Positions 1,218 through 43,600 of a stretch of DNA of 64,000 nt are shown one piece after another. Numbering within the stretch: position 1 is the stretch's first letter; every line of letters starts with the position of its first letter. The stretch comes from Haliclystus octoradiatus (lineage: Eukaryota > Cnidaria > Staurozoa > Stauromedusae > Haliclystidae): contig OU744452.1 in the NCBI GenBank assembly GCA_916610825.1, positions 4,375,543 to 4,439,542 on the forward strand, read 5' to 3'. Below the pieces are notes generated by a model. It had not been told where the DNA came from, did not search any database, and was given only the letters and a program-made list of their open reading frames with translations. The position numbers and the translations under genes were made by a program.

Positions 1218-11271
<10,054 letters not shown>

Positions 11272-15054: not shown

Positions 15055-15431
15055 TGTAAAAAGAAAGTAATGTAGACGCTGTCACCCTACCGAAGGCACC
15101 CGTACCACTCCTCTATTTCTAGATGAATGGCTTTTTTCGTTGAGAGCAATGATTTTAAACGCTCTTTGTTGATCTCAGCCGCGACACTGCAGATCAATTT
15201 CAACAGATTTCATGGCAGATAGGTCTTGATTGTGCTACTACTTAAATACACCGCAGCTACTCACAATGCAGTTCCCTCTGGACCATTCCATCCGCCATCC
15301 TCAGATGGTACTCACTTGATGTGTCAGATAAAGTCAAGGCTGAGTTGACCTTTGGGGGATTTGAACCACTGTCGATCAGATATTATCCGATCTGAAGTTC
15401 GGTTGCCCTGCCATCTGAGCTAATCCTCCTT
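15055..15431 (-). mobile_element. tRNA-derived SINE with perfect target-site duplication
   Basis: On the minus strand the element opens with a tRNA-like head: A box TAGCTCAGATGG and B box GGTTCAAATCC, spaced as in a tRNA. A unique body and a T-rich tail (TTACTTTCTTTTTACA) follow. TTAACCAATGG is duplicated exactly at 15044-15054 and 15432-15442, so the borders are well defined at 377 bp. It sits inside the LINE fragment. The body near the tail recurs at about 43990-44100, showing a dispersed family. Pol III transcription is expected from the boxes, and mobilisation by a LINE in trans is inferred. Confidence 0.85.
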
Positions 15432-16601: not shown

Positions 16602-16695
16602 ATGGCATACATGGACCGTAGATCAAGATCCCCTGCACCAGAAACTATTGATTCAAAGTTTGTATTTGAAATTGCATGGGAAGTTGCTAACAAGG
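16602..16695 (+). CDS. GYS: GYS exon 1 (start codon)
   Basis: The ATG at 16602 opens a frame reading through RRSRSPAPE to [12 protein letters not shown], then donor GTAAGC at 16696. It ends one base into the Val codon of NKVGG, which exactly fits exon 2 starting at 39679. A second in-frame ATG occurs at codon 4. Confidence 0.9.
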
Positions 16696-19600
16696 GTAAG
16701 CAGGAATGCAGGAATGGTAATATTATTCTGGATTTAGCGACTTAGCGTAGCCCGTAGGCTAGTAGGCCCATCGTTTTCAAGCCCATCCAACTGGCCTTGA
16801 TGAAGTGATTATCCAAATTGCTTTTGAATGTTGTAGTTCGCCGTGCTTCTAGGTTATATAACTATAATTGTGCTCAAATCAATTAATAATAACAACCTAA
16901 TCAAATCATAATGTTATTATTTAGGTCTAGGCCTATTCAGATTTCAGTAAGACATTCCTGTGTTGTTTACCAGGCAAGCGACGCTCGACGCGGGCAACGT
17001 GACGTAATATCACTCCACTCAAATTTGATTCTGTTTACTTCGTGGTCTCTACTGATGCCAATGCCAGTATATTCTTTATAATGCCGTTCGAGTCCCTTCA
17101 GAAGTTGTTTTCTTACAATATGTCAGTGTTCTTAATTTAGAATTAAGTAGGCCTAGTATTAGTAGAGAGTTTCAGATTTCTTGAACAACGACGTTAGAGA
17201 CATGCGCAGCGCGTGTGAACGGTTCAAGGCCATTCTATCATCGTCGTGAACGGTGCAAATACAATATATTTTATTATCATTATTTTCAGTAAAAGTTTCT
17301 TCGAAAAACATTTCAAGATAAAGGATAGCGACAAAAAATAAACAGACTTAGGTTTAAACAACGTTTTGCAATAGCTTAATTGCATCTTCAGGTTAAAAGG
17401 AATAACATATAAAATTACAAAGTATTTATAGTAAATATTTACGTGATTATAAAATTGGGTAGAAAACAATACAACAAAGATAATATATTATTTACTTAGG
17501 TAGAGTTATACAAATAGCCTAGACCAGACGGAATCCTTCTGAGTGTTGAGGATCGGACTTAGCTCTTTGATTGATAGCATTTCATGAATTAAACAATCAA
17601 ACTTATTGGTGCACTTCCTCAGTACAGAAATAAGATGTCCTGAATTTTTGACATTTTTATTGTGAGTTTGTAAGTGTAAACCGACTGCCGACCCACAATG
17701 TTCGTCAATACGTTGATGTAGATGCCGGCGAGTAAAGCCGACATAACTCGCATCGCACCAGTCACACTGGAATAGAAAAACAACGCATTGACGAGACAGT
17801 AAAGCCGGCCTCGGTTCACGCACACGAACATCGTCAATTATTTTTCTAGATTTAAAAACTGGTCGAAAGCTCTGTCCGACTTCTACACTCAGAGTTTTCA
17901 ATTGTCGCCGTAGTGAATTGGCTGAAACCTGGTCTTTGTAAGGCAAAACAATGTTAATTGCATCTCTTTTGTTGTGGGTTATTTTGTCTAATTCTACATT
18001 ATTAGGTAAATTAAACTTAGAAATACAAAAACTAATTAAGGAAATAGGATATTTAAGTTTTAAAAATATGTTTTTGATAGTAATACATTCAGAATCAAAT
18101 AAATAATCATTAGATGATAAACGGCGTGCTTGATCAAGCATCGTTAATAGCAGCCCCCGTTTGTATTTCGTGTCCACATGACTATTATAATGCAACAATA
18201 GCCCATTGTCAGTGGGTTTGCGGTAAACCGAAGTTTCAATACTACAATTAGTTCTTTTTAGTAATATACCGATAAATGGTATCTGATTTCTATCTTCTAT
18301 TTCAAGAGTGAAATTTAATTCTGAATTATCATTCAATAATTTGAGAAAGCTATTAGCACTTTCAATACTAGGCATAACTGCTATGGTGTCATCAACATAA
18401 CGACGATAATAATTTGGTAATAAATCCTGTTCTTGTAATTTTTGTTCCAAATCACACATGAATATGTTGGCCATCAAGGGTCCAAGAGGTGATCCCATGG
18501 CAACGCCGTCAATTTGTTCAAAAAGTTCGCCTTCAAATTGAAACAATTGGTTCTTGGTTGCTAATAATAGCAACTCTGCAAGTTCACTGGGCGTTAACGA
18601 TAGCTTGTGAGTTTGATTGAACCAGTCATCTTTGAAGGCTTTTTGGACTAGTATATCTTTAGTTTTTTCAACAGGGATATTGGTAAATAATGATGACACG
18701 TCATATGATACTAATATATCAGAGTTATTAATTGTTGTAGTTTTAATTTCTTCACAAAAATCAAAAACATCATTAATAGTGTAGAGATTGCACGATAAAG
18801 GTTGCAATTTTTCATCTAACCATTTTGCAAGTCCAAAGTTATAGGTAGGCCTATTGGTAGCAGATAAAATCGGTCGCATAGTTAAAGGATTTTTATGTGT
18901 CTTTGGCAGACCATATAGTCCAGTCAATCTAGATCGAAAAAACACGGAACCCAGGACAAATTGCAACACAAGCTTTTTTTACAGATTCTAGAACAGAATT
19001 TAACGCTTAACAACATACTGAAAATCGAGAAAAATCGAGGTGGCGGAACATTACTTTATTTGCATTTGAAGTCACAAATTATTAACCCTTTCTAAAACGC
19101 CATTATGCCTCCATCTAAACGTCTGCGCACAGGCTGAGCGCGACATGTTTTCGGAAAACTGTCAAATTTTGATCGAAAGACAATACAACAAGATGGTAGA
19201 CATCGTTCGCGTATCATTCAGGTTTGCGTATGATTTTTTATGGTTTAATGGTGAAATGGTACACTTTCCTCCTAATTTTGGTACTCAAAGATATTTGATT
19301 CGAAGAAACTCTCTCACGAATTAATTCATAATGGAATTTTATCAGTTCGAAAAGTCTCCCAGTTGCAGAGGAAAACGAAGGATGACAGGCATTATCAAGG
19401 ACAAGGTTCAAAGCACAAATCTGTAGATATTCAATAGGGCCTAACACTTCTTGTATTGGCTTTCTATTTTCCAAAATCAAGGTCAGTATTTTAATTAAAA
19501 GTAAGTGAAACATATTTTTAATGAATTATATTCAATTATTCTAATGTTTGTTTGATATGTAGCATGATCATGAAATCATGATGTGAAAATAAAAACGATC

Positions 19601-22600
19601 ATAAGGAATAAGGATTCAGTTCTCAGTTGTTTGTTAAGACATAGTGGTTTAGACAGGATGCAAGACTCCCAGATATTTTGATGTAAATGCATGTACAATT
19701 GCCAATTCCTATGGGCTCTGCTGTAACAGTATTACACATGATAGCATCAATTCTGCTGAGTGATCCGAATCAGGACCAATAACATTTGTTGGCCTATTAT
19801 CTTTATTTCTGACATAGTTTGGCAGCATATTAATGCACCCCGTATAACAGTGCATACAACTGTTGGCCCCCTATATGCCATGGCAATAACGTATTTACGT
19901 ACTCAATCTGTACAATTTCACGCATAGCATAATGAAAGTTTCAAATTTAATGCATTCAAACGAAAGAGCTTTCTTGAAATTGATTCAATTCAGACCTATC
20001 TGCTTTTATATCGTATTATTAATATTTAGCTGAACATGCAAAGTTTGAACATTTGGTGAACAAGGTGTTTGCAAATAATAAAAATTTTGCATGATAAAAA
20101 TTGGAAAACAGGGTTGAAGTCTTAAAATGGGGTCTGGAGATTCACCCCCTTAAGAACTTTTTGAATTCTGGCGTCCCAAATAGGGAATTTTGCTATGATT
20201 TTATCTGAAATATTCTGTAAAACTTCATGTTTTTGTTTTTATATAACGCAAAAATCATAGATAACGCAATAACGTAGATAAGAATGCCTATTCACGATTT
20301 CACAGACAAATTTTAGGGCAATAACACATCCTGATGAGCCGTAAAAGGCCCCAACTGTTGCTCAACCCCTAATTTACAAACATTGCATGTCTGGTATCAT
20401 GCAACCTAGATATCTTTTGAGCAATTGAGGATGTTCTTGTTATCTTCTGTGGACCCCTAGACCACACATGTTAATTATCGCAACAATGGTTGAATGTCTC
20501 TTCAATCTATTTTGAATGGTTTTATTAGAAATATACATCCATTGTATTCAACATCTATATTATTTTATAATCATAGATAAAGTTTATGATGGTGAAAGTT
20601 ATGGACTCTTTGACCACACCTATTATACTACTGAGGGTGATGAGATGTAACTATAATGCCTAGGAGATGGTCTACTTGATTTATATATATATATATATAT
20701 AAGATGTACCTGTAATGCCTATGGGATGGTTTAATTGAATTATATATACATTCTATGTAACGTAGATATCATTTTATGATGTCAGAAATGTTCCTGTTAT
20801 TGGTACTGGACTCTTGGACCTCACCTATTATACTACTGAGGGTGATTAGATGTACCTGTCATGCCTATGGGATTGTCTACTCGATTTATATTTATATTCT
20901 ATACAACCTAGATAGGATTTTATGATGTCAGAAATGTTCCTGTTCTTGATGTTGGACTCTTGGACCACACCTATTATACTACTGAGGGTGATTTGATGTA
21001 TCTATAATGCATATGGGACGGTCTACTCGATTTATATATATATTCTATGCAACCTAGATAGGATTTTATGATGTCAGAAATGTTCCTGTTATTGGTACTG
21101 GACTCTTGGACCTCACCTATTATACTACTGAGGGTGATTAGATGTACCTGTCATGCCTATGGGATGGTCTACTCGATTTATATTTATATTCTATACAACC
21201 TAGATAGGATTTTATGATGTCAGAAATGTTCCTGTTCTTGATATTGGACTCTTGGACTACACCTATTATACTACTGAGGGTGATTAGATGTATCTATAAT
21301 GCATATGGGATGGTCTACTCGCTTTATATTTATATTCTATACAACCTAGATATGATTATATGATGTCCGAAATGTTCCTGTTCTTGGTATTGGACTCTTT
21401 GACCACACCTATTATTCCATTGAGGGTGATAAGATGTATCTAATATGCATATGGGATAGTCTACTCGATTTATATTTATATTCTATACAACCTAGATAGG
21501 ATTTTATGATGTCAGAAAGGTTCCTGTTCTTGATATTGGACTCTTGGACCACACCTATTATACTATTGAGGGGGTTAGATGTATCTGTGATTCCTATGGG
21601 ATGGTCTACTTAATTTATATACACGTTCTATCTAACCTAGATATGATTTTATGATGCCAGGAATGTTCCTGTTATTCGTATTGGACTCTTGGACCACACC
21701 TATTATACTACTCAGGGTGATAAGATGTATCTAATATGCATATGGAATGGTCTACTTGATTTATATATATATTCTATGCAACCTAGATAGGATTTTATGA
21801 TGTCAGAAATGTTCCTGTTCTTGATATTGGACTCTTGGACCACACCTATTATACTACTGAGGGGGTTAGATGTATCTGTGATGCCTATGGGATGGATTTA
21901 TATATACATTCTATCTAACTTAGATATGATTTTATGATGTCAGGAATGTTCCTATTATTGGTATTGGACTCTTGGACCATACCCATTCACTACTGAGGGT
22001 GATTAGACACATCCTTATTTTGTACGGGATGGTCTACTTGATTTATATATGATTTATTTTGATTTTGCCGATTTGAATAGAATTTAATATTTTAATATTT
22101 GCCTGGTAGTTAATTAATATAATCGTTAGGTACATCGATTTGCCTCTATTTGGAAGGAGTTAATGCGTGTTCTTATGCCAAGCCTCTTTTAATGCGCATT
22201 TGTTATTGATGATAGTACAGTAAAAGTTCAGTAAATTCCCTAATATAATTTTTAGCCTCGTTATGGTTTTTTCTGTTATAATGATCAACTTATGATTTTT
22301 ATTCTATAATTATATTGTGTCACTGAGTGTGTTCTTCTTGATTGCGTACATTCTCTTATTTTTTGAAATATCGCTCAGTTTTTAGCCCTAAATGACACAG
22401 CCTCGCTTTCATGCCGACCGTAACTAATTTCTATAAAATTGAGCACCTTCCGCCACTTCGATTTTTCTCGATTTTTGATATGTTGTTCAGGATAAAATTC
22501 TACCCTATATTCCATAAAAAAAGCTTGTGTTGCAATTTGTCCTTGGTCAAATTTTAGATTGACTGGACTAATATAGATGCGCCAGTCTAGAGCCGTGTGG

Positions 22601-25600
22601 GGCTATTATATCTGCGGTCGTTTTTGGTAATATTCGTTTTATTGCTTTAGTGAGAGCCTCTCCTTGGCAAGTAACGGATGGTCAACTTTTCTTGGTCGGC
22701 CCCTTTTTTTAGGACCTTCTTGAAATGGAATAAATTTGTCAGTAAGGTCTATTGATGCCTGTTTCAATAGCCTGATATAGTGATCTTTGTCCATTACGAC
22801 CACGCCATTGCTTTTATCTGGCTTGGTTATCACAATATCATCTCGCTTTTTAAGACGCTTAACCGCTTTAACGAGTTGTTTTGGGGCAGGCGGGCCTTTT
22901 CGTTTCACATAGTTCAATGCAATGGATCGAAGAGTAGAAGTAACTAATTCTTTCGACTCCGTAGTCATATCGCTATCAAGTCGCCAACAAACTTTTTCAA
23001 AGTTTGCCAATATCGTTTTAGAATCCTTATCATTATTCCCAGACGGTAATGTCTGTGGTAATGTAATTTAAATGGAAAAGCTAAGGCTGGTCAGAGTTAT
23101 GTAGAAGATTACTGCAATTTTCATGAATAATATTCATAACCTTGGAAATTATCCTGCTTAATTCTGGAACTGATCGGCCAAATGATTGTGTTAGGTCTCC
23201 AAGTCTACAAGGATATGCAAAATCTTCGAAGTGTAATACATCGCCCCTCAATACAGCCGGCGACTGTTCCATTGTAGCTAACAAACTTCTCTACTAACTT
23301 AAGAACTTGTGCCATTCATGGAATATCAACTTTCTTGAATCAAAAATTAATGATACATTCGTCTGGTGACATCAAATTTAAATCAATTAGGAGTTTCCCA
23401 ATAGGGAAAGACCAATGCTCTTTGTAGAAAAGTTTCAAAACACGAAAGTAACTCCATTTCATCAATAACATCTTTTTCATAGATCATAACAACAAGCCTT
23501 TCCTTGTCTGCACGAGTTGCCATTTTTAATGAAAGTTAATAGAATATGTTAATGCGTTGTTCTACCGTTGTTGCCTACTGCGATCTGAAATACATTTTTA
23601 CAAAAGCGGTTTTCAGCGGGCTTAACAGTTGGTGATGTGACTGGTACCGTTGTCGTTCAATAAATCCAAAACTCTCTAATAATATCATTAAGATGGTCAT
23701 AGAAATCGTACACCACCTGGGACCTCTCAACTTCAGGAGAAAAGTCAAAATGAGAAATTGCAATTCCTGAGATACCAAAACGGCTCCATATGCCAGCTAC
23801 AAATTTCTAGCTCAGCTTTTTCTTCGTAAAAATGTGATAGAAATTTTCTGTTTCAAATATTAATGCTTTGTTGTTAAAGTGTTGAATTTTGTACATCATT
23901 TCTCTGGCCTACCATAAAGGCATCTAGCTGGCCGAACAACAATACCACTCTTCAATTTTTGTCGTGCACAGGGAATATATTACGGTGCATTTTTCTTTAA
24001 AGTTTCTTAAAAATTTAACTATCATCCGTGTTTCAGTGCACAATGCAGTCAGGCAGTTATAAACAACAAGTTTTTCATCAAAAGTTGCACCATTTGGGAG
24101 AGACTTCAGTTTTAAATGAATAAGGTCTTTGAGTCGGGGATCTAGAATGCTGCAATGTTCAGAAGATTTCTGGTTTTCTGGTCTGTACACCTCTTTTTCA
24201 AGTCTTCCTTCATTATCTTGGTTGGATGGTGTTTTGCAAGTTTCGTTGGAAATTGCTGACTGTAGTTTATCTAGATAGAGTTGTGATAACTGTTCCCCCA
24301 GACAGAAGAGTCTCTGTACTTAATGCTTGCATTGACTCTTTGAATGGTTTTAACACTTCAAGATTCTCTACTACATTATGCTCTGATAGGCTCAGCTCAA
24401 GATGGGACAATGTTGATCTTATTTATGTAACAACAGCCATCGTAGCGGGGTACAACAGTAAAGCCCTTTTCAGCATTTCATACATATTATTCCATCTTGT
24501 CTTGACATCTACAATAAGCTTAAGATTTTTAACAATTTGACCGTTTTTATTTTTGATAGCTAAAATTTTTGATAGTCTTGGAGTAATTGCGTATCAAGAG
24601 ATGGTTTGGGAAAAATGACTTGCTGTGGAGCGGACTCGGCCACATAGACAATCAATAGCTGCATGCAATACAATCAAGATGATTAAAATCAGTATTTATC
24701 AAAATGGCATTTGCCCAAGCCTGCCCATTGTCTGTTGTTACACTGATCATATCATTGTCCAATTCATAATCGCCAACAACTTTCTCAATAAAATTACCAA
24801 TGTTGACTACATTTTATTGAAGCCTCTCACTTCTGTAGCTGCGAGGATTAAGGACTTCATTTTCCAGTTGTGGTCGATACAATGCCTTGTCAAAGATCTA
24901 TACAAAGTTGTATTCAAAGATGTCCATCCATCAGTAGTACAAGCTAGCCATGGTCCTGCCCGCTTCAGCTTGGCTAATTCGCTAATGATTTATTTCTTTT
25001 TTCATCATATCTGTTCATAGTTATTGTACGGAAAGTATGTCCTCCAATAATATTATAACCAGGAACTCATACATTCATCATTTGTTGAAATCCAGATCCT
25101 TCCACTATAGATCCTTCCATTTACATTATTGACACGTTTCTTACGAGGGTCGATTTACTGTGTTGCAAAATGACAATCTATAGTTCCAATAGATGATGAC
25201 AATCCAATGCTTTGAGATACAATATTTTGACTGTATTGAGCAGAATGAATATATTTCATGTGGTTAATCATTGCAGATGTTGATTTTCCAATATGGACTT
25301 TTGGAAGTGCTTGATGATGAGCTTGTTGAACTCATGTTGCCTCCTAACTATGAACTGAAAGTCTTGAATATTCTCAACAATGGGCTTACATGTACTGGAT
25401 AATCAAGCTATTTATTTTTGTACAATTTGTAAGTTTATCACCACTCATCTCCGGATATTTGTTTTGTTTTTGATTCAGCTATGTAATTACTGTATTAATT
25501 TCCTGCGCTATCTGAGATTGAATACTTTTGTTTCAGATGCTGGATCACGCTGTCATAAATTAGAAAAATTATAGTCGGTAAACAATTGTATTTACCAAGC

Positions 25601-28600
25601 AGACATTCAGCATTGACAAAGATTGCATTCTTCATTTACATTGACAAAAAAGGACTACAGATTTGTTTGAAAAATCTTTCTTTTTGGCGTAATATTTTTG
25701 ATCATTTTTATTTATTATTTTTCGAATAATGGTCTTACAATTCGAATAGTGATTTAAAAAAAACAGTTTGAATATATTAGAATAATCGCTATTCGGTTAC
25801 CATCACTAATATGAATTCATTAAATCAGAGTTCAATAATTAATAATTCTACAATATATGTATATTGTGTAAGACATGTAATCTGCTAATGTTCAATTCAA
25901 ACTTAAAGTGTACATCCCGGATATTGGGAGATTCTTTAGATAGAGAGAAATTTTTTATTCGTACATGATCTTCTTGTGTTTTTACTTTGCGAGATCATTT
26001 CTCCTTCAAAAATGCAGTCAAAGGGATGATTTTGGGATAATTTTGTGTCTCACTCTTTTTCCTCGAGCAGGAACCCATTTATTTTCAACAAGAGGGCTTA
26101 CACCGGAAAAAACACTAAACATTTTACTTATTTGTCTTTAAATAAAAAACGGCTGAACCAAATGACAATCTGATTTCGGAATTTTCAATGTTCAGCTGAA
26201 GATTTAGTGCCATATTTGATCAATAATCAAGATCCAGGTAAGGAGATATAAGCCTCTAAAGTCAAAGGTTTCTAATTTTGTATTTTCTCACTCAAGTGCT
26301 CACACGATTAACACCTCTTTACGACTTTTTCTAAGCATGGTCGGCATAGTTTAAGGGTGATGAGAACTGTAGAATTATGTTGAAGAAATAATAATAACAA
26401 CGTAGGTTGAATTGATTTGTATGGTATATTTCTTCTTATAAATAATAATATTAATTCCAAGTTGACATGTTGATAGTAGACTGTACATTAAGTTCTTATA
26501 GTTTTCATAGTTTTCATTTACTGTATTTATAGTGTTTAGATAAATGCTAGAAGCTGCTAGATCATGCATGGTGATTGTGAGTCATGCGGGGAGTCATGTA
26601 GGTTCTCCTATGTTCTAGAATGTTCTAGATGGTTCAGGAAGGTTCCTACATAACTCCCCCCGCCAGATGGCGGAGCCAGAAATAAAAATGCATGATATAG
26701 GCTAAAAATGAGAAAGATTAATGCTTTAATATATGCTAAATTGTAAATAATAAATGTATGTAAATATAAATGTAAGTAATGATGGTATAGTAGAAGCTAT
26801 TAATGAAGGTTTTAGATATGCTTATAGACTAATTGCATAACAGTTAATGAGAAAATTCATTACAATTTTGGTGCATATACCAATTTGTTTAATTGCTTTG
26901 GATTTCCAGAAAAAGAAATTTTCATACAAGTGTTATATTTGGTTTAATTTCAGTTTCTTCTATGAGCTTAGTAATCTTCAATGTTTCTTTTATAGTCATA
27001 TTTTTTGCTTGTGAGTTTGATGAATTCAGTAATTTCTTGAGTTGCTGCTTATTCTTGTGTGCTTGATTAATTCAGTATTTTCTTGAGCTGTTGCTTATTC
27101 TTGTGTGTTTGATGGATTCAGTATTTTCATGAGATGTTGCTTATTCTTGTGTGTTCAATTTTGAACTCTGTCGTGTGTTCTTGTGTGTTTCTTAGTTGTT
27201 TAGTATTCTTAGTGTGTTCATTGTGTTTCAATGTTCTTAGTTGAATATTGAATGTTTCAATATTTAAAAGTTTTATGATGTTGGAATGTCCAATGTTTAG
27301 TGTTCAATATTTATAAGTTCCAAAATGTTGGAATGTTCAATGGTTTATGTTCAGTATTTTAAAACCTTACTTTTTTAGTTCAGTCTCTTCAGTTTTGGGT
27401 AATCTAATTCCTTGTGTTCAGTTCCATTTCTTGTGTTTATTTCCATTTCTCGTGTGTAGTTCCATAGTTACACTCTTGTGTTTAGTTCCATTTCTTGTGT
27501 TTAGTTCCATTTCATGTGTTTTCTGCGTGTTTTGATTAGTTACGTAAAATGCCATTGTTCTTCAGTGTGAAAATCAATCTAGTTATACTGTTTTGATGTC
27601 GCGGTCGTGAATAAAATATTGTGTTCAATTCCATGTTGTAATAAAATACTTTCAGATTTTAAATTATGTTGTAAAAGATTATTCATAATTAGTTGTTTTT
27701 GTAATTCGACGGACCAATTGATGAGTTGTTCTTATAAATCGACGGACCAATTGATGAGAACTGTAGAATTATGTTGAAGAAATAATAATAACAACGTAGG
27801 TTGAATTGATTTGTATGGTATATTTCTTCTTATAAATAATAATATTAATTCCAAGTTGACATGTTGATAGTAGACTGTACATTAAGTTCTCATAGTTTTC
27901 ATAGTTTTCATTTACTGTATTTATAGTGTTTAGATAAATGCTAGAAGCTGCTAGATCATTAGAAGGTTCGTACAGGGTATTGAAAATAGTCACACACCTT
28001 CAATAACCAGCAGCGATAACCTGCTCAGACAAAGCAGTAAAGAGGTGTTAATCGCGTGAGTACTTGAGTGAGAAAAATCCAAAACTAAAAACTTTTGACT
28101 TTAGAGGCTTATTTATCTTTTCCTGGATCCCGGATACTGATTAAATATAGCTCAAAATCTTTAGCTGAACAGTGAAAACATCATTCCGATAGCAGATTGC
28201 CATTTGGTTCAGCCGTTTTTTATTTAGAGACAAATAAGTAAATGTTTAGTGTTTTTCCCAGTGTGAACCCTCTTGTGGAAAATAAGCGGGTTCCTGTTGG
28301 AGGAAAAAGAATGAGACACAAAATCGTAACTTTGAGTGCATTTTTGAGGGGGAAATGCCTGCGCAAAACATGTACTAATAGAAAATTTTTCTCGATCTAA
28401 AGAAGCAATCTCTCAATATCCGGGATATACACTTTAATCATAAACCCATAACAGTTAACAAAGTTTAGATGTAACTAATAGTTGCTATCAGTAATTGTGT
28501 TCAAATCACCAGCAATCATCGAGCTACTTCTTTCTTCCCTTTTCAACAACGGTTCTTCTGGAATATCTCCGCACCTAGATTGGCCCTCTTTACGACGGGA

Positions 28601-31600
28601 ACTGAAATTTTCTGTAGAGACTAGGCCAGTTTTTCTCTGAATTTGTAACACTCAATCATTATACCCAAAACTCTACAACCTACTGGATTGTCAGACTCTG
28701 CACATATCGCTTAGTTGGGACATACTTCATACGTTATTGCCTTCTCATCCTTTACAAAATCTTTTATACTGACAATTTGTTGTTTCCATTTTACAAAGTA
28801 TTCTAAGAAATTTTCTTTCAGCCAAACAAATCGTCCATCGTCTACCTTTTTGTAAGGTACGAGTCGAGAGTTTTGCTTTTTTAGATGCTCATTGCATGAC
28901 CTCACGTTACAGCAGTCAACAAAAATCATTCATAAATTTGCAGAAATTTGTGGTTCCGAGACTACTTTAAATGTCATACTGCGCTCAAGTGCTTCTGCCA
29001 TTGACTTGGATAACTCCTTGACTGCCAGATTTACTTTCATCTTAGCATAGTACGTCAAATGAATGTGTTCCAATGTTAGCTTAGGGAGCTGATGCAATCC
29101 TTGCTCAAGATCAGCAGAATAGCATCTACGTATGTTTTCCCAAAAACTATATTTGGTTCGACCAGAGCGAGAACTAAGAATATTGCCTGCAAATTTAGAA
29201 TCTATTAAATTACAAAATGGTAACCCTATTACTAACTATATTTTACATAGAATGATTAAATTGCATATAAGCTGGAATTTTAAGACACTTAGAAAGCCTA
29301 GAACTTTCTGTTGATTAGTTTCTTGTATGGGCTGGTCTCTTATGACACACCTCTTGCAAGGATTCCTTGATTTACATCAGTGTCCGACAGAAGGTTTAGC
29401 TTTCTGGAATCTTGGGAGTTTTCAACATTTTCTTCTGAATTTTTTGTTGAGGTTTGGCCTATAATCAGAAAATGATCCATTTTCTTCTGAATTTTCTCTA
29501 GCCTTCTGGGATCTATGATCCCAGGATCCCCACTTTCGTCGGACCCTGGTTTACATATGGAATACACCCTTTCATTTATTCAGCTACTTGATAATGTAAA
29601 TAACATTCAGGAATTTTGATTAGAATAATTCTATTCATGGCCTTTTTTTATTTGCATCAACATTGTACAGTAAAACACTTTCGCTGGGCCTTTAGAGACA
29701 GATGTTTATGTCATTTGGTTCTTATCGAGGAGGCCACAAACTTTACATTTTTTGCGTGCCATAACTATCAAAATGTGACAGTTTTTTGCTCTTGGCACTT
29801 GCTTGTATTTAATCAGAGATGGGGCATATTTTGGTGTGACCAAATGGAAGATTTGTACAATAGTACTTTTGCCTAATTCTACTTCCACAGGCACATCAAT
29901 TCATTCCTGCATTAGCACAAGTTTAGAATGAGTCCTTGAATTTCCCTGTCAATGTACTTTTCCCATCCAATAGATTGCATGCATCAGGTACCTTAACACC
30001 GCCGTTGACATTGATACAAATAGCGAACAAATCGTCCATCTGAATGTAAAATTTTGGAATAAGGTAAGTAGGCTCCCTGAATTCTACTATTGTGCAGTTA
30101 TCCGATATTTCTATCCTCCAATCTTTCAAATACGGATATTTTTTTCCAAAATATTTTTTCAAGTAAAAAAATTTTGGAATTTGAGATGTATTATTAGTAT
30201 CAACAACATCTTTGCGAACTAGCACTCACTCGTGGTAATTGCTTGTGTGTAACGATACCAGGTAATGAATCTAAACTCTTTACTGGCAAATCAATCGTCG
30301 GTACCAAGTCAATGTGTAAAGTCTTACGAACCCTAGGAATTCCTTCATTGTCAACGTAAGGGAAAGAATTAATAGTAGTCATTGTGCACCTCAGTTTGTA
30401 ATTTTTCAGTACTTTCACTGGAATTGACACTCTCAGTCTCAGCTCGAACCCCCTCTGATAGCGTCCGGAAATTCCAGCATCTATAATCCATTGCTTAAAT
30501 TTTTACTTTAAATAGTGTATCAGCTACTACACGTTCATGAACAGAAGAACATTGTTTGTATATTGGATCAACAAGAGTTGCAACAGTTGATGCAATCTAT
30601 GTAAAAATTTCATCAAACATGTAAATTACTTTCTTTTGTTTATCTGTGTATTATTCCATGAAACCTTTTTCTTAACTTGGGGCTTTTCTAAGCTCAAGTT
30701 TTGTTGTTTGAACCCCGGATTCATTCTTCTCAGTTTCTAAATACCTTTCTAATAGAAAAAGGATGACGTCACTAAGAAAAGCATAGTCCTTACTCATCAT
30801 TTTCGTAAATTCTTAGTATGGTTGAAGAACCCTTGTCATGTTCTCCATTAATTTCCTTTCATTGACACTCAAGGTTACGTCGCAAGTTGTGATGTCTGCA
30901 AGATAGAGTGGAACTGGCTGTTTCAATTTGATGAGATACTCAATCATGTAATATGTTGAGTTCCAACGTGTGGGTACTTTTTGGACCAGCTTGAGGACCT
31001 TCATATTCAGCCCAAGTTGAATATCTTTGAACTCAGCTGTCGCGTTGTAGGAGTGATTAAAATGTCCTACTATTTTTCTTGCCCTAGCCAGCATATCTAT
31101 TATAGCCCTTTGTGAAAGCACCGCATCACCAACAACTCATTGTAATTTATGGATGGTACAATAGAGAAGGTCAATGTGCAACAGCTCTCCACTCAATGCA
31201 ACATTTGCAGCCCCATCTCTAACAAAAATGTGGAGTTTTGATTCCGGGATATCCCATTTGGACAGCATTTCTATAGCAAGTTGCGAGATGACACTGGTGA
31301 AATTGGGTCCTTGACAATGAATTCACGTTCCAATTTGTGTTTCATTTTTGATAGTAAACATATCTTTAGATACTCTAAATGTTTATTTGAATTTTTTATC
31401 CGAGTGCAAATCGCCACGCGTTGTCCCACCATCCTGCTTTGCAAGGCAATCTTCTACATGAACCATTAACAACAATCTTATTTTGTTTCTTCCCAAGACA
31501 GAAGAAGAACAAGCAGTAATAAACATTTTATCAACATTTTCCTACGGTTTATATTTGCTAGGAGTGATCTTACCAGTTGTAAGTGACGATTTGTAGATGA

Positions 31601-34600
31601 TAGAGCCATCAATAGCACGTAAGTAGATTCCCTTTATGCGCACATAGTATGCTTATCCTTGAATGCCTTGCCGCAGTGATTTTATGGTGTTGTGCATTAT
31701 TGCCATTATTGCATTTTCTATTTGAACCATATCACCACTATATTTTCGTACAGCGTTCGTAACATTTCTGTATACGATCAACTGATCTGTCCATTTTTTT
31801 GAAAATTTTTCAGCTCTCTCAAACCTGTTTCCATCCTTTTCCGCACACAGCCCACGCTTTCCTCCTTCTTCACAATTTAAGTATCACCAAATTCAAACTT
31901 CACAGCTTCAGAAACAACCTGTAGCAACATGAATCTCCATCGCCAACCATATATAGTTATGTATTTCTACGTTCTCTTTCAATGGAACGTAAAAATATCC
32001 TACATGCTACCTTTGATTCAATGTCTCCACTGGAATCCCCATGGTTTATAGGGCATGAGTTTACATGGGAATGCAATTACTTTTTCTAGGATGCATAATC
32101 TCTATCAACATCCAACCCTGCTCAACATTCGTACAAGATTTTAGACGATACCTCGTAGTTGAAAACGTCTTCTGTCCATACTAATAATAAAAATACACTT
32201 TTTGTATGAAAATCCCCGCTTTTGCCATGTACCTTTTGCCATCTACAAAGGCAAATACATTGGCAATTTTGAAGTTTTCAAGTTCGTTTGTACTTATAGT
32301 GTTATGTTTTTCTGTCACATTTTGTAGCTGCAAGGAAGATTCTTGCATAATTTCTGTGCATCATCAACAGATACTGCTTCTAATTTCTGGATGTGCTTGT
32401 TATATGCAGATTTATTGATATGCTTATTCAAACCCACAATGCCACAACACTTATCAAGTCCAGCCTGGCCCATGCTAGAGTAAGCTAGTGCAGCAGTATG
32501 TACATTCTACATCAAACCCCCCACTGCCTCCTTTCATGCTAGTAGTGAGCTTGGTGCTGGTCTCAAGACAAGTAGTATTATTGCAGATGGTACAGACAAA
32601 ATTTAAATGTTCAGCCAATCCATCGTGTCAGAATCTAAATCTAAAACAGAATTCTTGTCCATACATACCTTCCATCCATATTTATTGAATTTATAAGCAA
32701 TGTTTTTGAAATGATAGAATTACAAACAGAGCCTTCATTTTTCTAATTGCTCAGTCCTGCTTCAACTTTAAATCACCTTGATCTTGTAGTATAGCCTTCA
32801 AATGTTGATCCAAGTAAAGAGTTCAATAACTTTTTTTACAAAATTATACTTGCCTCTGAAATTGATTTTTTCCTAATGCTATTTTGAGGATTAGCTGATT
32901 TTCTCTTTGTTGATGTCGATGCTGAAGAGGATAATGAAATTTGTTCAATCTCTAATCCATCTACACCTTTTGATTTACTTAATCCCGGAAAATCTAGCTA
33001 CATAATGAAAAGTTGCTCTTTTTCCAGTGTTAGGGCTAGCGTCTATCTGATAAAGACTTCGCCTTGCAAACTTGCAAACAAGTATTTTAGTAACAATGGT
33101 TGGTTTTCAGTTAACGGAAAACTACTTACGCTACCAGGAACAAGATCCTTTTACAGTACTGTAGTTTGCTCATGCTACTTCATGTAAACAAAAATTGCAA
33201 TAGAACGTTAGAATGTTATGCGATTCTATTTCAATGTAAACAAGGTAGTTGGTGCTTGAAGTAACGACCCAAAGAAAAAATTTCAGACATAAGTTGACAT
33301 AAAGACATGTATTTATAATTTAATTTAAAGGTATTTTATCATCGCCAGCCACAGTTACAGAACACACAGATGAGTGGGTGCAGTAACCTTGTATGATTTG
33401 CCATTGCACTTCATTTTGCAGAATATCTAATCATAAAATTTATCGTAGTTGTGTCTCAAGTCCAATATACTAATTACACACATGCTACTGTACAGAACAT
33501 AATCACTCCCAACACACATATGAGATTACCCCTGCAAAAAATAGTTAACACCTGAACTGTTTTTCTCAGGGGTAGGCTCAGACAACCACACCCACACCAG
33601 AAATTATCAAACTCGCTCCACCTAGTTCACATTTCAATGTGAGTCTGCAAGCAGGCTAAAACCAGTAAGGCACGATCTGTACAATCTTTAATTTGCCGCC
33701 CAAAAAGCCAAAGTTGGAAAAGTTTGATCGCTTTGACTGTAACCTTCCTTGTTGCATACGTCTTACATAGTATGATAGTAAGAGTAAATTGGTCATTTTA
33801 ATAGATAAAACTAGAATCTATCGACTTGCTATAGTCAAATTTCATTTGATTCTTATCCGAGCGTTGAATGTTGATACCAAATACTGGTGATTGATACAAT
33901 AATGCTGTTGTTGTTGTTGTTGTTTATTTCTTTCTTTATATTTTTGTGTGGGATTTTTGCAATGTCATCATCTTGATGTCAATGTCTGAGCAATGTCATT
34001 ATCATCTTCGGATAAATCTATGTAATGATTTCCACCGTTTGTTGTATTCTGATTGGTTGGCTGTTTTTGCTCTTTTAGTAGCACAAACGCTTTCTTCATC
34101 GTCAAACTGATCTTCCTGATTTATTTCCGGTAGGCCCCTGTTTCTGCTTTGGAGATACTTCATCATTTGATAATCGTCTCTTATTGGTTACACCCAAATC
34201 AAAGGACCCATGCTATGCCGCATTCTTTACCTTCATGAAATTGACTTAGTAACCAAGTCTTATTATGAACTAACAATGAATAGCCGGGAGAATCACCCGC
34301 ATTTTGCTCGCTTTAATTACATGGTTGAAGTCATAGTTGATCGGCTGTAAGACAAAAGTAGAAGTCAAACGAGGAGGCACAAAGTAATCAGTGTTATTGC
34401 ACTAAAGAGTATATTGTTTGGATTACCGGTATTAAATAAAATTAAATTCTGAAACAATACTTGTTACAGTTAAATAATATATAGTATAACAGCAATATTC
34501 TAATGTTTACAAGTTTTAACGATAGTCTAATTTAGTCAAGATGATAATGCTACAATGTTAACAAATAATGTAATTAAAAGCATAATTTGATTGTATTGTG

Positions 34601-37600
34601 TTTATCATTACATAAATAATATTTTCATCTGTTTCATAAGTTTGGTACCTTTTGTCACATCTACTACCGGACATGTGATTGTCCGTCCAGTTGCAGTAAC
34701 AGGGTCAATGAGGCACAATATGTTTGCAATATTGACTTTTATGATGTCAGACTCACTCGGATATACAAATGAATTTGCTGGCTCAGGTGGTGATAAGCAG
34801 CTCACCACTGCATCGTCATTATCAACATCGATCTGCGTTACATATCCAATGTACCATTGGCAGGAATACAACAAGACAAAATATCTGTGTACGTCGGTGT
34901 TAACAGTGTTTGACAGTTATCAAGGTATACGTTTCGGGCAGATTCCCTCGGACCTGAAAACAATTTTACTTCAATACATTCCTCAGAAATAGGGATAAAG
35001 CAGTAGAGACTGCACATTCCAGCAAATATTTTTGCAATTTGAAATCGTTCAAACATTTCTTTACTTTCTTTATCCTCCCTTAATCAATTTTCTTTGTGTA
35101 ATAGAAAAAATTAAGTTTTAAGCATAGTTGTCTTAGCAAATTCAAATAACTGTTGGGGTGTCATTATTTGGTCATTTAATGGACATTGGATAACGCACCA
35201 CCTACGCCATCACAGGGTCCTTTTTAATGCAAGTGGCAAAAAATGCTACTCCGCAGCCACTCTGAAGTCTGATTTATGCTAGACCAGATTATAGAAATTT
35301 TTGCAATTTTTATATTGGCCTTCACAGCCGTCAAAAAAATAAACCATAGTTGTAGGCAAATAGCCAAGAATATCTTCTACAAAATTGATCAAAGTTTGTT
35401 GATACATATGAACTGCAACGGTTTCATGCCATAGGCAATCTGAAACTGCTTTGATTTATTTGAAAGTCCACATTTTTCAATTCGTTTGCTTGTTTTTTAT
35501 AGTAGCAAACTCATGGGTGCAATGTTGCCTGATAATTATTCCAGTGAAATCCTTGAACTTCATCTTAGATTACAAAGGAATAATTCTCTTCAAAATCGCA
35601 CATCACTAAAATTTCTCCTTTCAATAAATGTTTTTTTTCGCATTTTGCAATAGGCATACTGCTTTTTGGCAATAAAAAAATGACGTTTTAAAGCAATTAG
35701 TTTTGTATAAAAATATTAAATAAAACTCACTACCGACATAACTTTTTCATTCTAAACTACAATGTTCAGTGGAAGTCCATTGCCATAATTCAAAGCTCTC
35801 CACTGCTTTATCTAAATATATTGCTTAATAAGTAATTTTAGCCCTTCTATACCCTGCCAGCTCTCACAGGAACCCAAATGACAAGGGGCATTGTCTTGGT
35901 CATCTTCTCCATGTCCTCCATTTCTAGGGCAAACAATCAATTGTATACAGTCTTTGTATTCACTTTGGTTTAACTCTTCTGAATGGTCATTTAATTGGGG
36001 ACGAGTCCTTTTAACCCGACTCCGTCTATCATTTGGATTGCGTTTTGGTGTATCACACGCATATCGCATTAGTACAACTTGCATTGGCAAGAATGTATTG
36101 CTTTGGTTGCAATTGTGCTAAAGAACGAAATTTTGACAGTTGATTTTTAATTTTAAACAATCTATATATTTCCTGTAAATTGCATAACACTAGATGCTTT
36201 TTTGGCTTTCTTTTATCCCATTTACAATGACAGAAACATAGTCTTTCTTACCAGGTATTGTTCTAGATACTTCTTCGCTGAGATAAAACTTCTCTACGAT
36301 GGAAACTGTTTCTACAGGAAACTCTCTTTCAGTTGCCTTGGGCACAGCTAAAATGTCCATTCCATCCACTTATCTTCCTGCAACATTAGTCATGTGGTTG
36401 CACCAGTAATTTTAAGACAGAAACACGCGATCTTATCCAAATTAGTCAAGAGTTGAAGCAATATAACAAGGCAGCAATACTTTCAAATCTCTATTCGATA
36501 ATCAACAAATGGATTATAAATGAACGGTTTTCTTGGTTTATCTTCACAATTTACTGGACAACAGTTTAAACAATTTGGTTGTCAATTAAATTTCATACAC
36601 TCTTATCTCAACATAGTCTGCGTTACAGACCGCAATTCTTTCACAAAAGAATAGGGTCTGTGTTATTTGCACAGTTCTCTGTCCAGCCACTCTATGAAAA
36701 CGTAGAGCGGAAGTTTCTGATCGATGCATGGTAAATCTATTTTTCTTAGATAATAAATTCATCACCTCTGTTCGATCAATTAATTGTCATAGCTACGAAG
36801 CCTAAAATGGAACTTATTGCAATCATGTCAACTGAAGTAAACAATGTAATGTGAGAATCCCAGTGAGAATCACCTTAATTTTGCATAATTATGTGACATC
36901 AATCTTATTCCGATACGAGGCCCGGACAGAGAAACCGAGCAATTGACACAGACCCTATTCTTTCGTGAATGAATCGCGGTCTGTAACGCAGGCTAATCTC
37001 AACAGAGATCACAATACAACAATGATAATTTACAGAAAACCAAAAACATAAATACAAATAAGGGCTTTGTCACTTGACGTTGTTACTTGAGTTAATAATG
37101 TGCTTTGATGCTCCAAACTCTACGAGCTGCTCAAGTTTCTGGAAGTTTCCGTGGATCTGAATCTAAAATAAAAAACAACTTACTGATATCAGAATAGCAT
37201 ATTTATGAACAATCCATTTTTAAATCTTCAAAAACTTTTTCCAACATAAAGCTAGGCCGCGAAGTCCTCAAGGTAAAGAGTTAAAAAATAAGTACAACTT
37301 ATGAAAGACCTAAATGATCGTTGATTTGTAAGGCATAACAATAGTCATAGGTGATGAATGATAATGATGATTGGAATAATTTAACATTTTAATAACAATG
37401 ACATATGCTACTGTAGACTGTAAACTGGACTACAAAATCAATATTGTTAAATGCTCTATTTCATACCTTCTCAATCTTTGAGGTCCAAAACTGCACTGCC
37501 ACCCATAAAATTGATTCCTGAGCTACTCGTTGTTGCATCTGACAGCTTATGATCTATGAATTATTGCATCTTATCTGTCAATGTATTCTGGATCCGCTTG

Positions 37601-40600
37601 AGTTAATATTCCTTGCGTACTGTTTGGATACACGGAATCGTTACTTTTGGGTGGGTGAAACACCCAAACCACTCTCTATCGATTGATTGAGACTATCCAA
37701 ATTCTTAAGGTCTTTGTTCAATTTGTTGTCGCTATACGATGATTTTTCTTGGCATATCTCCTCACTGCTAATCTCCTAGGTGCTTGCGTGATCTCAATGT
37801 TCAATCTTATCTTAAAGCTGTTTCAATTGTATCAAACCATTTCACCTATCGTAACTTCATTATAAAATTTTCTACATGCTGCAGGATCATTGCAAATGCT
37901 TCCCAATCATATTCGATTATCTCTACATGTAGTTCTTCTCCAGCCATTACAAAAAAGTAACACTTTTCAATCCCAGTACAGAACATTACACATTCGGTTT
38001 GATAATAATGGCTATGGGTTCTTTTTAATTTATATTGACCATGTCCTAACTTTTTGAGGTAAGGCGTTTTGAGGTTATCTTTAAGCCTATCTTTAAGCCT
38101 AATACTTGGTCCATTGATTGTGATTGATTCCGTTTTTCAAGATCAATATCTACACTATCTTCAAGTGTTGTATAGCTATTGTTAGTGTTGGTAGAATAAT
38201 TATTTGATATATGGCTTTCATAAAATCCAAATTTAAGAATAAAAGGACAATCCTCTGGTATTATTATTATTATCAGATTCAATTTCAAGATGTTCTTCTT
38301 GTAAAGGTATTACATGTTATTGTTCAAGGTGAAAAGATACAGGGGAAAAATTATAAACATTACAATACTTAATAGCTACCATTGTACAACTTGGAATACT
38401 ATCCAGAGTAGCATCAAGTCCAATGTTTATGCCTTTGAGAATAGCAGTATCATTGACGCTGTCAAGAGAAGCCTTGTAAAAGGTGGATTTGACTACTGAT
38501 AACGAAGTTTTCCCTTTTTTATTTTTTGAACTTCATATGACTAAGCTTCATAGGCTTAATACATTTCTTGTTCGGTCCTGGAGCCATTGCATAGGCCTTG
38601 AAGTACAAGAGTTGTCTGAAGGTAGCTCTTCAACGCTCATGTTGCAGCGTTGAATATGCTCTAGTAGGTAAACAAGACCAAGAATATGGGAACACTGGCC
38701 ATCTACCCCAGCAATACAGTGACAATTTCCTTTGGCGGATTCCTTAACAGGACTCGCAGATAGCGAAACGTCATTGTCACTTTGAACTTTTCATGTTTTG
38801 CCATCGATCTCCAGCAGCAGCCATTTATGGAACAATCAGTTCCAGTTTTAAAAAGCGTAGGTCCGCAAAAGGAATATGACCTTCTATGTAAAACTTACAT
38901 CCTTTCTGTCCTGGTCTTTGAGAATATTGAAACTTACTTACAACTGATCTCATACATATTTTTTTAAGAAACTCATTCATGATTAAAACTCCACTAAACA
39001 ACTATAACAGAAAACTCAGTGAAAATTATAAAAAAGTGTAAAACCTCTCATCACATGTATCCCACAACCCCTTGCAAGAAAAAGCTCACCCCAGTCTCCA
39101 GAAATAGACGAATTGTACTATCATAACAAATGTATATAACAATTACTCAATATTAATCTATTTCCTTTTGTAATCACAACATAGATTGTAACTCACAGTC
39201 TTTACTCAGATTCAAATACACACTTCTGTTATCAACACGTTTAATCCTTACTCTTACATGGATTTGATGTTTGGAATTGAAATAATACAATCATGTATCA
39301 TAAATTGACTAAGAACACTTTCCATTCTCAAAGAAAGAGACTTTACAACAATCTACCCTGAATATACGGTATACACAATGTGATGCAGCGCAGTATATCA
39401 TTTAACATCTACTGTACATGTGTTCCATAATTATGTCAGTCGTTGTTCACGAAATTAATAAAATATTTACCAAAGAATTCATTTAATTCAATAGAAATAC
39501 AAAATTAAATTAACTATCTAAATTATCTTTCTAAAATTGCCATAATAATAGGAAAACTATTATAGTAACTCAAAAATATCAAGTTTTGCTCTCCAACAAC
39601 CATATTTTGCTTGCCTCTCTTTCCTATTTTGTCTCTCTTATCATGTTGTATTTCATATGCTCTTTTTGTTATTTTTAGTTGGTGGCATCTACACAGTTAT
39701 CAGAACAAAGGCAGGTGTTACTGTTGATGAACTGGGAAATAATTTTTGTTTACTTGGACCATTTAATGAGAGTTGTGTCCAGACTGAAGTTGAGGTTCTT
39801 GAGCCTGAAAATCCTGCGTTCCGTCATGCCATTGCTGCAATGAGAAACCAAGGAATCAAGGTAAAATAGTTGTATTTTCAGTTGTTTTCTTCATTGTATT
39901 GAGTATTTATTCTTGAATATTTGTCAGGCAAGTGAAAGATTTGAGAATAAAATTGAAAACGTTGCAGATTATAGTGTTTTGTTTGTCGCTAATCAGTATA
40001 ATCAAGTCTAAATTATTTTCTCGGATAAACTTTATTCAAAATTAAATGCTCTTTCACCTACAAAAAATACATGCAACCATTATTTCAAAGCGACTTCTTT
40101 TGCATGCTTGAATGGTCTATGTGGCCCCCTGGTTTACCTGGCGGTGGGGAATCTTAAGTTGCGCTCCATTAGTTCTACGTATTTCAGGCTCTTTTGCTAT
40201 GACAATTTATTGATCAAACAGACATGAAGCAATAAAGCTAATTGATTCAATTGAAAAAACCTTTAATGGAAATTAATTGTTGTATAGTCAAACGTTTAGA
40301 ACGATCACCTCTATACAGCGACCACCTGTATATATTGGTCACTCTTAAAATGTCCAAAATAGTATATTTTATTTTAATAATCTCTTATGTAAAACCACCT
40401 GTATATAGTCAATATTGATAAAAAAATGTGATTTTGAGATTTTTGGGAGATGGGACTAGAAAGGCAGAAACAAGGCTTTCTCCATTCCCAACCCCATTCA
40501 ATCGGATCAGGATAATTGCTTTCTCTTGTAATCTCTGACCCCATGTGTGCGCACTTTGGTATACCATAAACGTAAAATATGTTGATGTAAGGCCGCCCTG

Positions 40601-43600
40601 GAAGGGGGATGTTATCAATAGATCTACTTCCACTCGTAAATAGTTCTTCTCTTGCTTTGTTATGCAAACTAGTGTTATTATGTATATAACAATTACAAAT
40701 CGTTGGTAAGCATTTGATATATTTCAGGATCAATTACTAGCGAAGTTCTAAATAACAGGCATAACACACCTGTACATCCGGGCAAGGAAAGCCATGCCTT
40801 CCATGCGGATTTCTTCCAATTTTTCTAGACCTTCATTTGCATGTTCTAAATAGAAGCTTATTGCAATAACAAGGACATCTGTATCAAACGTTCGCAAGAC
40901 AAATGTAGTATAACTATATTTCACGAAATCTAAGATGTGCACAAAGGCTAGAGTATCTGGCTTCTTCGTGATTACAAATACATAGGTTACTACGATTCTA
41001 TCATCAGTAAAGTCTTCTTCAAAATAACAGACAATATTGTTGAAATTATTAGTATCTAAAATGCTGTTTTACGTAATCCTTTTTTGTTAAGCGTTTCGAC
41101 CAAATTTTTGTCCGTGTGTCTTATATGTATATTTTTATTTGAAACATTGTTACTGAGCGCCCTAGAGCGCTTATTGAATGCTATAAGTTGAGCGATTGAC
41201 AGTGCAATTTTACTATTTTTTACTTCATCGTTGTCTGATGTGCCGAACATAGAGTTACCATGTAACAACGTGTTGACTAATGAAAGAAGAGAAAATGGTA
41301 TATCATCTTGCTGACAATGATCATCAAAGGAGTCATAAATGTTAATGTAGAGTGCCTTTTATGAAATTTCTAATGTGTTTTTCCACTAATTCATTGCATA
41401 AGCAAGGTCATCATGTAATCTGCATGACGTGTATATCGGTTGACACTCCCATCTGTTTTCTTACTTGATGTATAGTAATCACACGCTGAGCTTGATATCT
41501 CACAATCTTTGATGCTTTCTATCGGACGCTCTCTAAGCCGAGTTGTGTGAATTTACGGGATGTCATATGGCGGCTCAAGAAGTTCTGATAACCGTTCCTT
41601 ATATAATTTTCAATCCTCAGACATAGAGAACAGTCTGCTGCTTTCTTTGCAATGCAGGTCTCCTTCAAGATACGCTACTAAATGTAGCAATGCTTTGATT
41701 TCACATGTTTGTAGAGTTCTCCATTCAGTTGTACAGTCGTCATTTATAGCAATAGGCCTAGATCTATTATAAATGGCGATAACGCATCTGCTATAGTATT
41801 TTACTTCCATTAGAATAACTTCTCTTTCACCCGACTCACTATAGTTTAGCTATGCGATTAATGACTCCTTGTTATTTTGCACATTTAAGAAGCTTTTCCC
41901 CCAATTCTAGTTGTGTAGGCTTTTTTAAACGGCCATTGGCTAATGACTCTAGTTTTTCACAAAAAAGACATGCTGCCCTTAGTGCCCTCCAAGATTTACT
42001 ATGTTTTCTGGATTTTGGGTTTACTGGGGCCTTGTCAGTTTTAGTAGGACCGAGCGTCCCCGTCTTCTCGCTCTTTCGTTTCTTTTCTCTTTCCCGTTGT
42101 TTATAATTAAATCAATTAAAGTGCATCGCCTAATTGCCATCTAGCTTCCTTTTTTTTTCTTATGGCTGTTCATTTTACAAAACAGCACTTACAGAATGCC
42201 CTTTACTAAAATACTTACAAAAATTTGATAGATCTAACAATTTACATTTGCATTTAAACATTATTAACGAAGATGATAATGCTACATCTGCTGGAAGACT
42301 GCTAATTTGTTTGCTAAGACATCCTTTATATTAGACGTAAATAATAATAAATCTCTCTTTGAACTTACAACATAAACCAAATAAGTACACTGCTTCAAAT
42401 TTCTTGCCATCGATACATATCCTCTGTAATGTACCTCATTGCCAATTAAGGGCCTATTCAAAGGACAAATTAACCTATCTAGGTCATCACTTTGACAAAC
42501 CAAAGATTTCACGTAATCCATACTATCCATGGCATTGAAATCATTATGCAGAATAGATTTCAATATACATATGTGATTGTAAGATCCACTCTTCGAAAAT
42601 ATGATTGCATCTGTTTAGCGATCTATTTAAACTGAATGCTTTAAATACCGTACTATCCTACACTTACAAGAAAATAAATCTATCTAGTATTTAAATAGCA
42701 AGGATGGAAACACAGTGGTTTTAAAATAATAATTCATTCAATTCAAACTATAGTCGGGAAAGGAAACTTTAAAACATCGCTGCTGTACACCTTCATGTGT
42801 TTGATCATAAATATATTCATCATTATTGTTATAATATATTATTATATATTTATTACCATCTCTGGAATGAGTAACAAATGTTATCTTAGTTATTAGCATC
42901 TGATCACCGCAACGTGTGTTTCAAGCAGGACAGAAAATGTTGATTACAATTATGATGTGAACATATTATGCGCATGTGTTAAATATAAAATGTCTAAGTT
43001 AAAGTCAATATGCGAACTATAAAGAGAAAAAAAACAGCACTATTATTCTCATCTAATAATGAGTAAGCTGATTCAAGGTCAAATAAGTTTTAAAACCGAA
43101 CGTATATTTTTCACCACATTTAGAAATCGGGTAATTATTCAATCGTAATTATCGAGCTTCACAATTGATTTCCGGTTGGGGTCAAATGCTGATTAGCTTT
43201 TGTTTGGTATACATTTCTATCTGGTATCAGATTTTGCAGAAAAAAGTCATTTACTTACGGCATAGACCCCACTATTAATATTGTATTCGAATAGAATAAT
43301 GATGTTATCAAATATTTTATTGTTGTTTTGGCAATCAATTAGCGTCCTAAACCTTCATGTTCATGAACTTTTGATCAACTGAATCATAGTCTACTCAAGT
43401 ACTTTCCATAAACTGTTAATGAAATGTTTGTAAACTTGTGAATATCCATGAATATAGAAGTAATAAGTACATATTTACCATGCATAGTTATAACATGTTG
43501 GCAGTTGAAGATATTTCATTAATTATCAGCACCCATATCTGGTGAATTAAGCTACCATTCAAAGATGATGCTATAGAAAGTGCTATTTAAATCTGTACAG

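Follow-up and report, generated by a model that had tools for sequence, protein, structure and literature searches.

Nested and partly dated mobile-element insertions in the 23-kb first intron of glycogen synthase in Haliclystus octoradiatus

A survey of mammalian introns describes many fixed mobile elements, most of them without evident effect on the host gene (PMC3088655). The first intron of the glycogen synthase gene (GYS) of the staurozoan Haliclystus octoradiatus likewise carries many such elements; unlike the introns of that survey, it includes Penelope-like, TTAA foldback and P-like types, in what is a comparison with a single locus. We analysed this intron within a 64,000-bp stretch of contig OU744452.1 (the window; positions 4375543-4439542 of contig C8 in our numbering), and the searches covered the whole genome (261,861,806 bases, 33 contigs). 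We give a probability of roughly 0.92 to the reading that the intron has grown as ordinary mobile elements inserted into it repeatedly and independently, from long ago up to recent times: it would be 23 kb long because at least 14 kinds of repeated, mostly mobile DNA inserted there, several of them recently and some of them nested. The insertions would have been tolerated because they lie inside an intron that is spliced out, and deletion would have been slow enough for old layers to persist beneath new ones. The result is a nested, partly dated insertion stack within one gene; its relevance is to the annotation of the source genome, and the view of intron growth is unchanged by it.

Mapped repeat stretches account for 17,279 of the 22,983 bases of intron 1 (75%), a figure that takes in a short stretch at 25740-25860 and also 22571-23067, which was counted as part of the Penelope-like element and not by a separate search. 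The repeats form 17 stretches, or at least 14 families if three short stretches are parts of neighbouring elements (features are collected in Table 1). The initial annotation had called the intron an archive of at least nine transposon families; the archive is borne out by the map and the count is exceeded. Up to 40 candidates were scored per search. Four insertions are documented by a target-site duplication together with relatives elsewhere: a 3.66-kb inverted-repeat element, a TTAA foldback, an element with long terminal repeats (LTRs) that resembles a terminal-repeat retrotransposon in miniature (TRIM), and a 382-bp miniature inverted-repeat transposable element (MITE). Three nests are formed, the first by the Penelope-like element and the 3.66-kb element within it, the second by the foldback and the LTR element, and the third by a coding element, a 694-bp insert and the 382-bp MITE.

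Table 1. Features of GYS intron 1 and its flanking exons, in window coordinates (TIR, terminal inverted repeat).
Feature	Positions	Strand	Remarks
GYS exon 1, coding part from ATG	16602..16695	+	closes one base into Val codon
GYS intron 1	16696..39678	+	22,983 bp, GT..AG, phase 1
Penelope-like element, 3' part	17276..18915	-	reverse transcriptase PF00078 2e-9; GIY-YIG PF01541 4.8e-4; open frame 17506-18978
Inverted-repeat element	18916..22570		3,655 bp; TIR TAGTCCAGTCAATCTA; 3-bp duplication ATA; nested in Penelope-like element
Minisatellite, 146-bp unit	20702..22050		9.3 units, within 3,655-bp element
Penelope-like element, 5' part	22571..23067	-	frame runs on past inserted element
PIF/Harbinger-like fragment	23078..23683	-	~605 bp; 4 of 31 other matches, 86-91%; name presumed from motif
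First hAT-like remnant	23684..25310	-	very decayed; name presumed from motifs (17 residues)
TTAA foldback element	25907..28433		~435-bp arms; TTAA at 25903-25906 and 28434-28437
TRIM-like LTR element	26358..27974	-	in foldback loop; LTRs 26358-26650 and 27752-27974; duplication AGGG / GGG
P-element-like transposase remnant	28731..29166	-	PF21788 TNP-like_GBD 2.4e-8; 1 other copy, 72%
MITE, ~175 bp	29378..29551		CAGKGTCCGAC ends; 8-bp duplication, 7/8 alike
Second hAT-like remnant	30450..31272	-	3 other copies, 86-87%; PDB Hermes matches
Repeat stretch	31281..31614		15 other matches, 72-90%; could belong to neighbouring element
Mutator-like remnant	31621..32991	-	name presumed from motif GTWQKRGFS; 2 other copies, 73%
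Repeat stretch	33209..33528		19 other matches, 71-74%
Repeated protein-coding element remnant	34314..37858	-	SDGCAGQYKN motif; split by 36404-37097; closest relatives 81-84% among matches scored
694-bp insert	36404..37097		~300 bp minus its MITE; relatives 83-93%; 8-bp duplication ATGTGGTT/ATGTGCTT, 7/8 alike
MITE, 382 bp	36614..36995		within 694-bp insert; 9-bp duplication ATCTCAACA, perfect
SWIM/YqaJ-type gene remnant	38119..39114	-	name presumed from motif CHC..CSH; 15 other matches, 66-86%
Repeat, ~130 bp	39130..39259		10 other matches, 74-92%
GYS exon 2	39679..39861	+	PF05693, 1.1e-17 (exon alone)

Profile matches uphold the Penelope-like identity of the first nest's host. Its reverse transcriptase and a downstream GIY-YIG domain, the latter borderline (20.8 bits against a Pfam cut-off of 22.6), lie within one open frame, and 13 of the 18 PDB matches (E up to 10) are reverse transcriptases, the other five being an unrelated synthase; the 5' part taken alone gave no Pfam match. 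Other copies are numerous and close: of the 65 scored other matches to the 3' part and its flank, 56 reach 94% identity or more, and the lowest has 79%. As many as 52 of the 65 end within the same 66 bases of the query (positions 1594-1659) while their starts vary, and several copies across the genome form opposed pairs; 5' truncation, a common 3' end and opposed copies are typical of Penelope-like elements. Described Penelope-like elements with a GIY-YIG endonuclease share with this one the two domains in a single frame and the many truncated and opposed copies, and the window copy differs from them in being split by a DNA element.

That DNA element, the 3.66-kb inverted-repeat element, contains no open frame belonging to it that reaches 100 codons. 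When its flanks are joined with both copies of the 3-bp target site left in place, the reading frame of the Penelope-like element runs straight through. A perfect 3-bp duplication was found in 18 of 20 fetched relatives (L061 has no duplication, and L072 lacks the right end inside the fetched stretch), and the 19 complete relatives span 3.2-4.1 kb. The window copy carries 18 substitutions in 1580 bases (1.1%) that are private to it when compared with the 20 relatives. Assignment of this element to PIF/Harbinger is not supported: target-site duplications of that superfamily are 3 bp of the type TWA, and here the 3-bp sequences are free (for example CTG, CAA, GTT and AAG). A "family A" had been listed in the initial annotation without definition, and it may be this element with its 146-bp minisatellite.

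The second nest lies in the loop of the foldback, whose arm has 28 private substitutions in 445 bases (6.3%) against 20 relatives; the relatives are about 940 bp long, and 13 of the 20 copies have TTAA intact on both sides. The LTR family has a 293-bp LTR with TG..CA ends, and the pairs are 98.6-100% identical in 10 loci. We scored target-site duplications at 20 fetched loci, four of which were not scorable: a 4-bp duplication flanks all 10 LTR pairs and five of the six solo LTRs, two of those five representing one duplicated insertion. These two solo LTRs (loci L030 and L031), with the identical 4-bp duplication, stand 22 kb apart on contig C1 and adjoin near-identical frames that resemble gag and pol by eye; the shared duplication and the near-identical neighbouring frames together point to a recent local duplication.

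The LTR at 26358-26650 in the window is full-length (293 bp) and the second carries a 70-bp internal deletion. Once this deletion is allowed for, the flanks read AGGG and GGG, a duplication one base short, which rules out an element without target-site duplication; likewise, the 208-bp repeats cannot be the whole LTR, which is 293 bp in the family and internally deleted in the second window copy. The two LTRs differ at 1 of 208 bases and at one more in a 13-base tail, about 1%, and the 6.3% of the foldback host against this value fits the order of nesting. The minus orientation is read from TGGTCCGTCGA, which resembles a primer-binding site and stands two bases past one LTR, and GGCGGGGGGAGTTA, which resembles a polypurine tract and stands ahead of the other, both on the minus strand; no tRNA match was assigned. 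No open frame of 100 codons was found in the internal part. TRIM elements have been described in animals, in bivalves (PMC6934838), an ant (PMC3532108) and Echinococcus (PMC4558846), and share short TG..CA LTRs and a short target-site duplication with the window element. Altogether, structure and target-site duplication uphold the TTAA foldback and TRIM-like LTR names. The internal part, at ~1.1 kb and with minisatellites, is longer than in TRIMs as we know them.

The third nest has a protein-coding element without a Pfam match as its host, interrupted by the 694-bp insert, itself interrupted by the 382-bp MITE. Three other copies of the coding element extend across the insertion point, and two of them are uninterrupted there (C1, 12.46 Mb; C2, 30.00 Mb). 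The MITE has terminal inverted repeats, and among 20 relatives the 9-bp duplication is perfect in 15, has one mismatch in four and two mismatches in one; we take a MITE with a 9-bp duplication to be Mutator-like. Its private substitutions against the 20 relatives are 11 in 381 bases (2.9%), and set beside the divergence of the insert from its own relatives this agrees with the nesting. The coding element would itself have moved recently, since less than 0.5% separates its relatives on C8 (about 17.59 Mb) and C2 (about 38.21 Mb) in the two stretches compared, one of 598 bp with 99.8% identity and one of 240 bp with 99.6%, which together extend over ~3.2 kb.

Elements no more than ~10% diverged from their relatives make up 8,726 bases, or 38% of the intron with 22571-23067 counted in, and an older layer of 14-29% divergence survives as pieces of 0.1-2 kb. 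The initial proposal that dead elements are retained for very long, with little deletion, describes the older layer; it does not describe the near-identical LTR pair, the 3.66-kb element and 382-bp MITE with their few private substitutions, or the closely matching Penelope-like copies. The intron is thus a running deposit of all ages and not solely a graveyard, in a genome that holds several recently active families (the LTR element, the Penelope-like element and the 3.66-kb inverted-repeat element). Little deletion stands in part: for 57 private substitutions, the foldback arm, the 3.66-kb element and the MITE together show four deletions that total 17 bp and two insertions that total 11 bp, in a sample that is biased because badly deleted elements go unrecognised. 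Two relatives of the 3.66-kb element have indels similar to those of the window copy, whose own may thus be inherited, and the 70-bp deletion in the second LTR comes in addition to the four events sampled.

The length of the intron, its repeat content of about three quarters and the 4 small deletions against 57 substitutions could also be expected of a special refuge or hotspot, created by unusually low deletion or by an insertion preference. We consider this improbable, given what the neighbouring intron contains. Intron 2 of GYS is 4 kb long (39880-43890), gave 2378 first-look candidates as a whole query and contains three or more repeat families. One is a 142-bp repeat (42160-42301) whose copies reach 99% identity, another is a decayed element in pieces over 40430-43275 with relatives at 76-89%, and a third is a repeat at 40017-40238 at 75-77%. 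On this one comparison, of two introns in one gene, intron 1 looks ordinary and set apart by length alone. High-copy families with hundreds of first-look candidates over many contigs also speak against a refuge, and this analysis saw no indication of a function or special property of intron 1.

The initial annotation had read everything between 16695 and 39679 as one intron that splits a valine codon; at the sequence level, this intron is real. The donor at 16695/16696 reads AAGG / GTAAGC and the acceptor at 39678/39679 TTTTTAG / TT, and the in-frame phase-1 join of exons 1 and 2 aligns unbroken over the junction to human GYS1 (phmmer E 1.3e-21). With a human GYS1 query, we found later exons in sequence order up to 63.8 kb; three short exons, exon 1 included, are weak individually (E 0.12-0.37), and a GYS-like match at 54.9 kb is spurious (27% identity, E 1.3). 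The exon 1 stretch is single copy, its one match to one candidate genome-wide being itself, and this together with the GYS1 match over the junction yields an intron of 22,983 bp. Alternatively, the real promoter and first exon would lie nearer exon 2, in which case part of 16.7-39.7 kb would be intergenic DNA and the exon at 16.6 kb a former or alternative start. The junction is known from sequence alone and the exon 1 peptide by itself reaches only E 0.37 against the same query, which leaves some room for this arrangement, but the in-frame join that matches GYS1 across the junction and the single-copy exon 1 stretch make it very improbable, more so than a refuge. Assemblies tend to fail in repeat-rich DNA, yet an artefact that joined unrelated repeats is scarcely credible here, since a random misjoin would not give target-site duplications and uninterrupted host-element copies elsewhere.

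Several points nevertheless weigh against growth of the intron by repeated insertion as we describe it. The 16695/39679 splice is drawn from comparison of sequences. Where the window has the 694-bp insert, the remaining copy of the coding element (C2, 25.83 Mb) carries 1.9 kb of different DNA, and the divergence of the coding element (16-19%) overlaps that of the insert (7-17%), so that their order is taken from the interruption. The order of the Penelope-like and 3.66-kb elements also comes from interruption and not from dating, the divergence measures of the two being different. Ages are biased young, because identities come from the 40 or fewer candidates scored per search. Finally, the Harbinger, first hAT, Mutator-like and SWIM/YqaJ names were not recovered in the profile and PDB searches made.

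These four remnants are all repeated in the genome, and their labels are presumed from motifs. The PIF/Harbinger-like fragment gave no Pfam match and three PDB matches (E 0.76-1), none a transposase. For the first hAT remnant there was no Pfam match and two PDB matches with E above 1, neither a transposase; of this remnant, only the 107 bases at 23950-24056 recur in the genome, in 11 of 31 other matches (71-86%). No Pfam match was obtained for the Mutator-like remnant, or for the SWIM/YqaJ remnant either in the window or in its L102 copy. The second hAT name is weakly upheld by its PDB matches, which are all four to Hermes transposase (E 0.12-0.16), and in Pfam the remnant meets DUF7018 only, under the cut-off (E 0.034-0.092). 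A profile match upholds the P-like name, PF21788 being found at 2.2e-6 in the plain frame as well. This GTP-binding insertion domain is common to the P-element and THAP9-type transposases; unlike those, the window holds a short decayed piece whose ends and duplication were not found. Of the 46 other matches obtained with the query that includes the ~175-bp MITE, 45 fall on the MITE; the query as a whole had 3122 first-look candidates. The initial family names thus fared unevenly, Penelope-like, TTAA foldback, TRIM-like LTR, MITE and P-like standing by structure, target-site duplication or profile match. Rfam returned nothing in the window at its gathering threshold, and the two matches in the intron at E up to 1 lie far under their gathering scores; a known RNA, such as a hammerhead, was rejected accordingly. 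No tRNA genes were found in the window.

All nine orientable elements of intron 1 are antisense to GYS: the Penelope-like, Harbinger-like, two hAT-like, P-like and Mutator-like elements, the unmodelled coding element, SWIM/YqaJ and the LTR element. The two-sided chance of this under independence is 2 x 0.5^9, about 0.004, for a pattern recognised in hindsight and with four of the names unconfirmed. Contrary to an antisense rule, a later GYS intron holds a different Penelope-like remnant in sense orientation (61348-62020; 43-49% amino acid identity to the intron 1 copy). In human genes, an antisense bias of intronic elements has been described (PMC3517506, PMC1794541), and orientation biases near exons are reported for human and mouse (PMC3088655).

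Of all parts of the intron, only the repeated protein for which Pfam gave no match deserves specialist attention. It has at least 497 residues and carries VVCDFAENY, YFSDGCAGQYKN and a further 21-residue stretch. The relative on C8 spans L101:404-2258, and its 497-residue frame (L101:768-2258) has no match in Pfam (E<=1), PHROGs (<=0.1) or the PDB (E<=10); a composite protein built from the window element met in Pfam a sub-threshold DUF6601 alone (E 0.073). No relative of the protein was confirmed in viral and prokaryotic contigs. Element ends were sought in the young C8 and C2 relatives, where the likeness reaches the limits of the compared stretches and no boundary was met. Acidic residues stand 84 and then 26 or 40 residues apart, a spacing that could fit a DDE-type transposase and could also be chance. 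That the element belongs to a cut-and-paste transposon superfamily without a domain model, still or until recently moving, is a speculative reading that we hold to be unlikely; the protein may already be in Repbase under some name.

Outside the intron, a voltage-gated potassium channel gene lies upstream of GYS on the minus strand (3221-11274; Ion_trans 5.1e-38, BTB_2 3.1e-29). Between it and GYS there is a plus-strand reverse transcriptase fragment (14626-15075; PF00078 5.8e-5, under the Pfam cut-off). The window also contains a long ATA microsatellite of about 175 units (1943-2469) and a tandem array of about 10 units of 42 bp, 98% alike (3939-4355).

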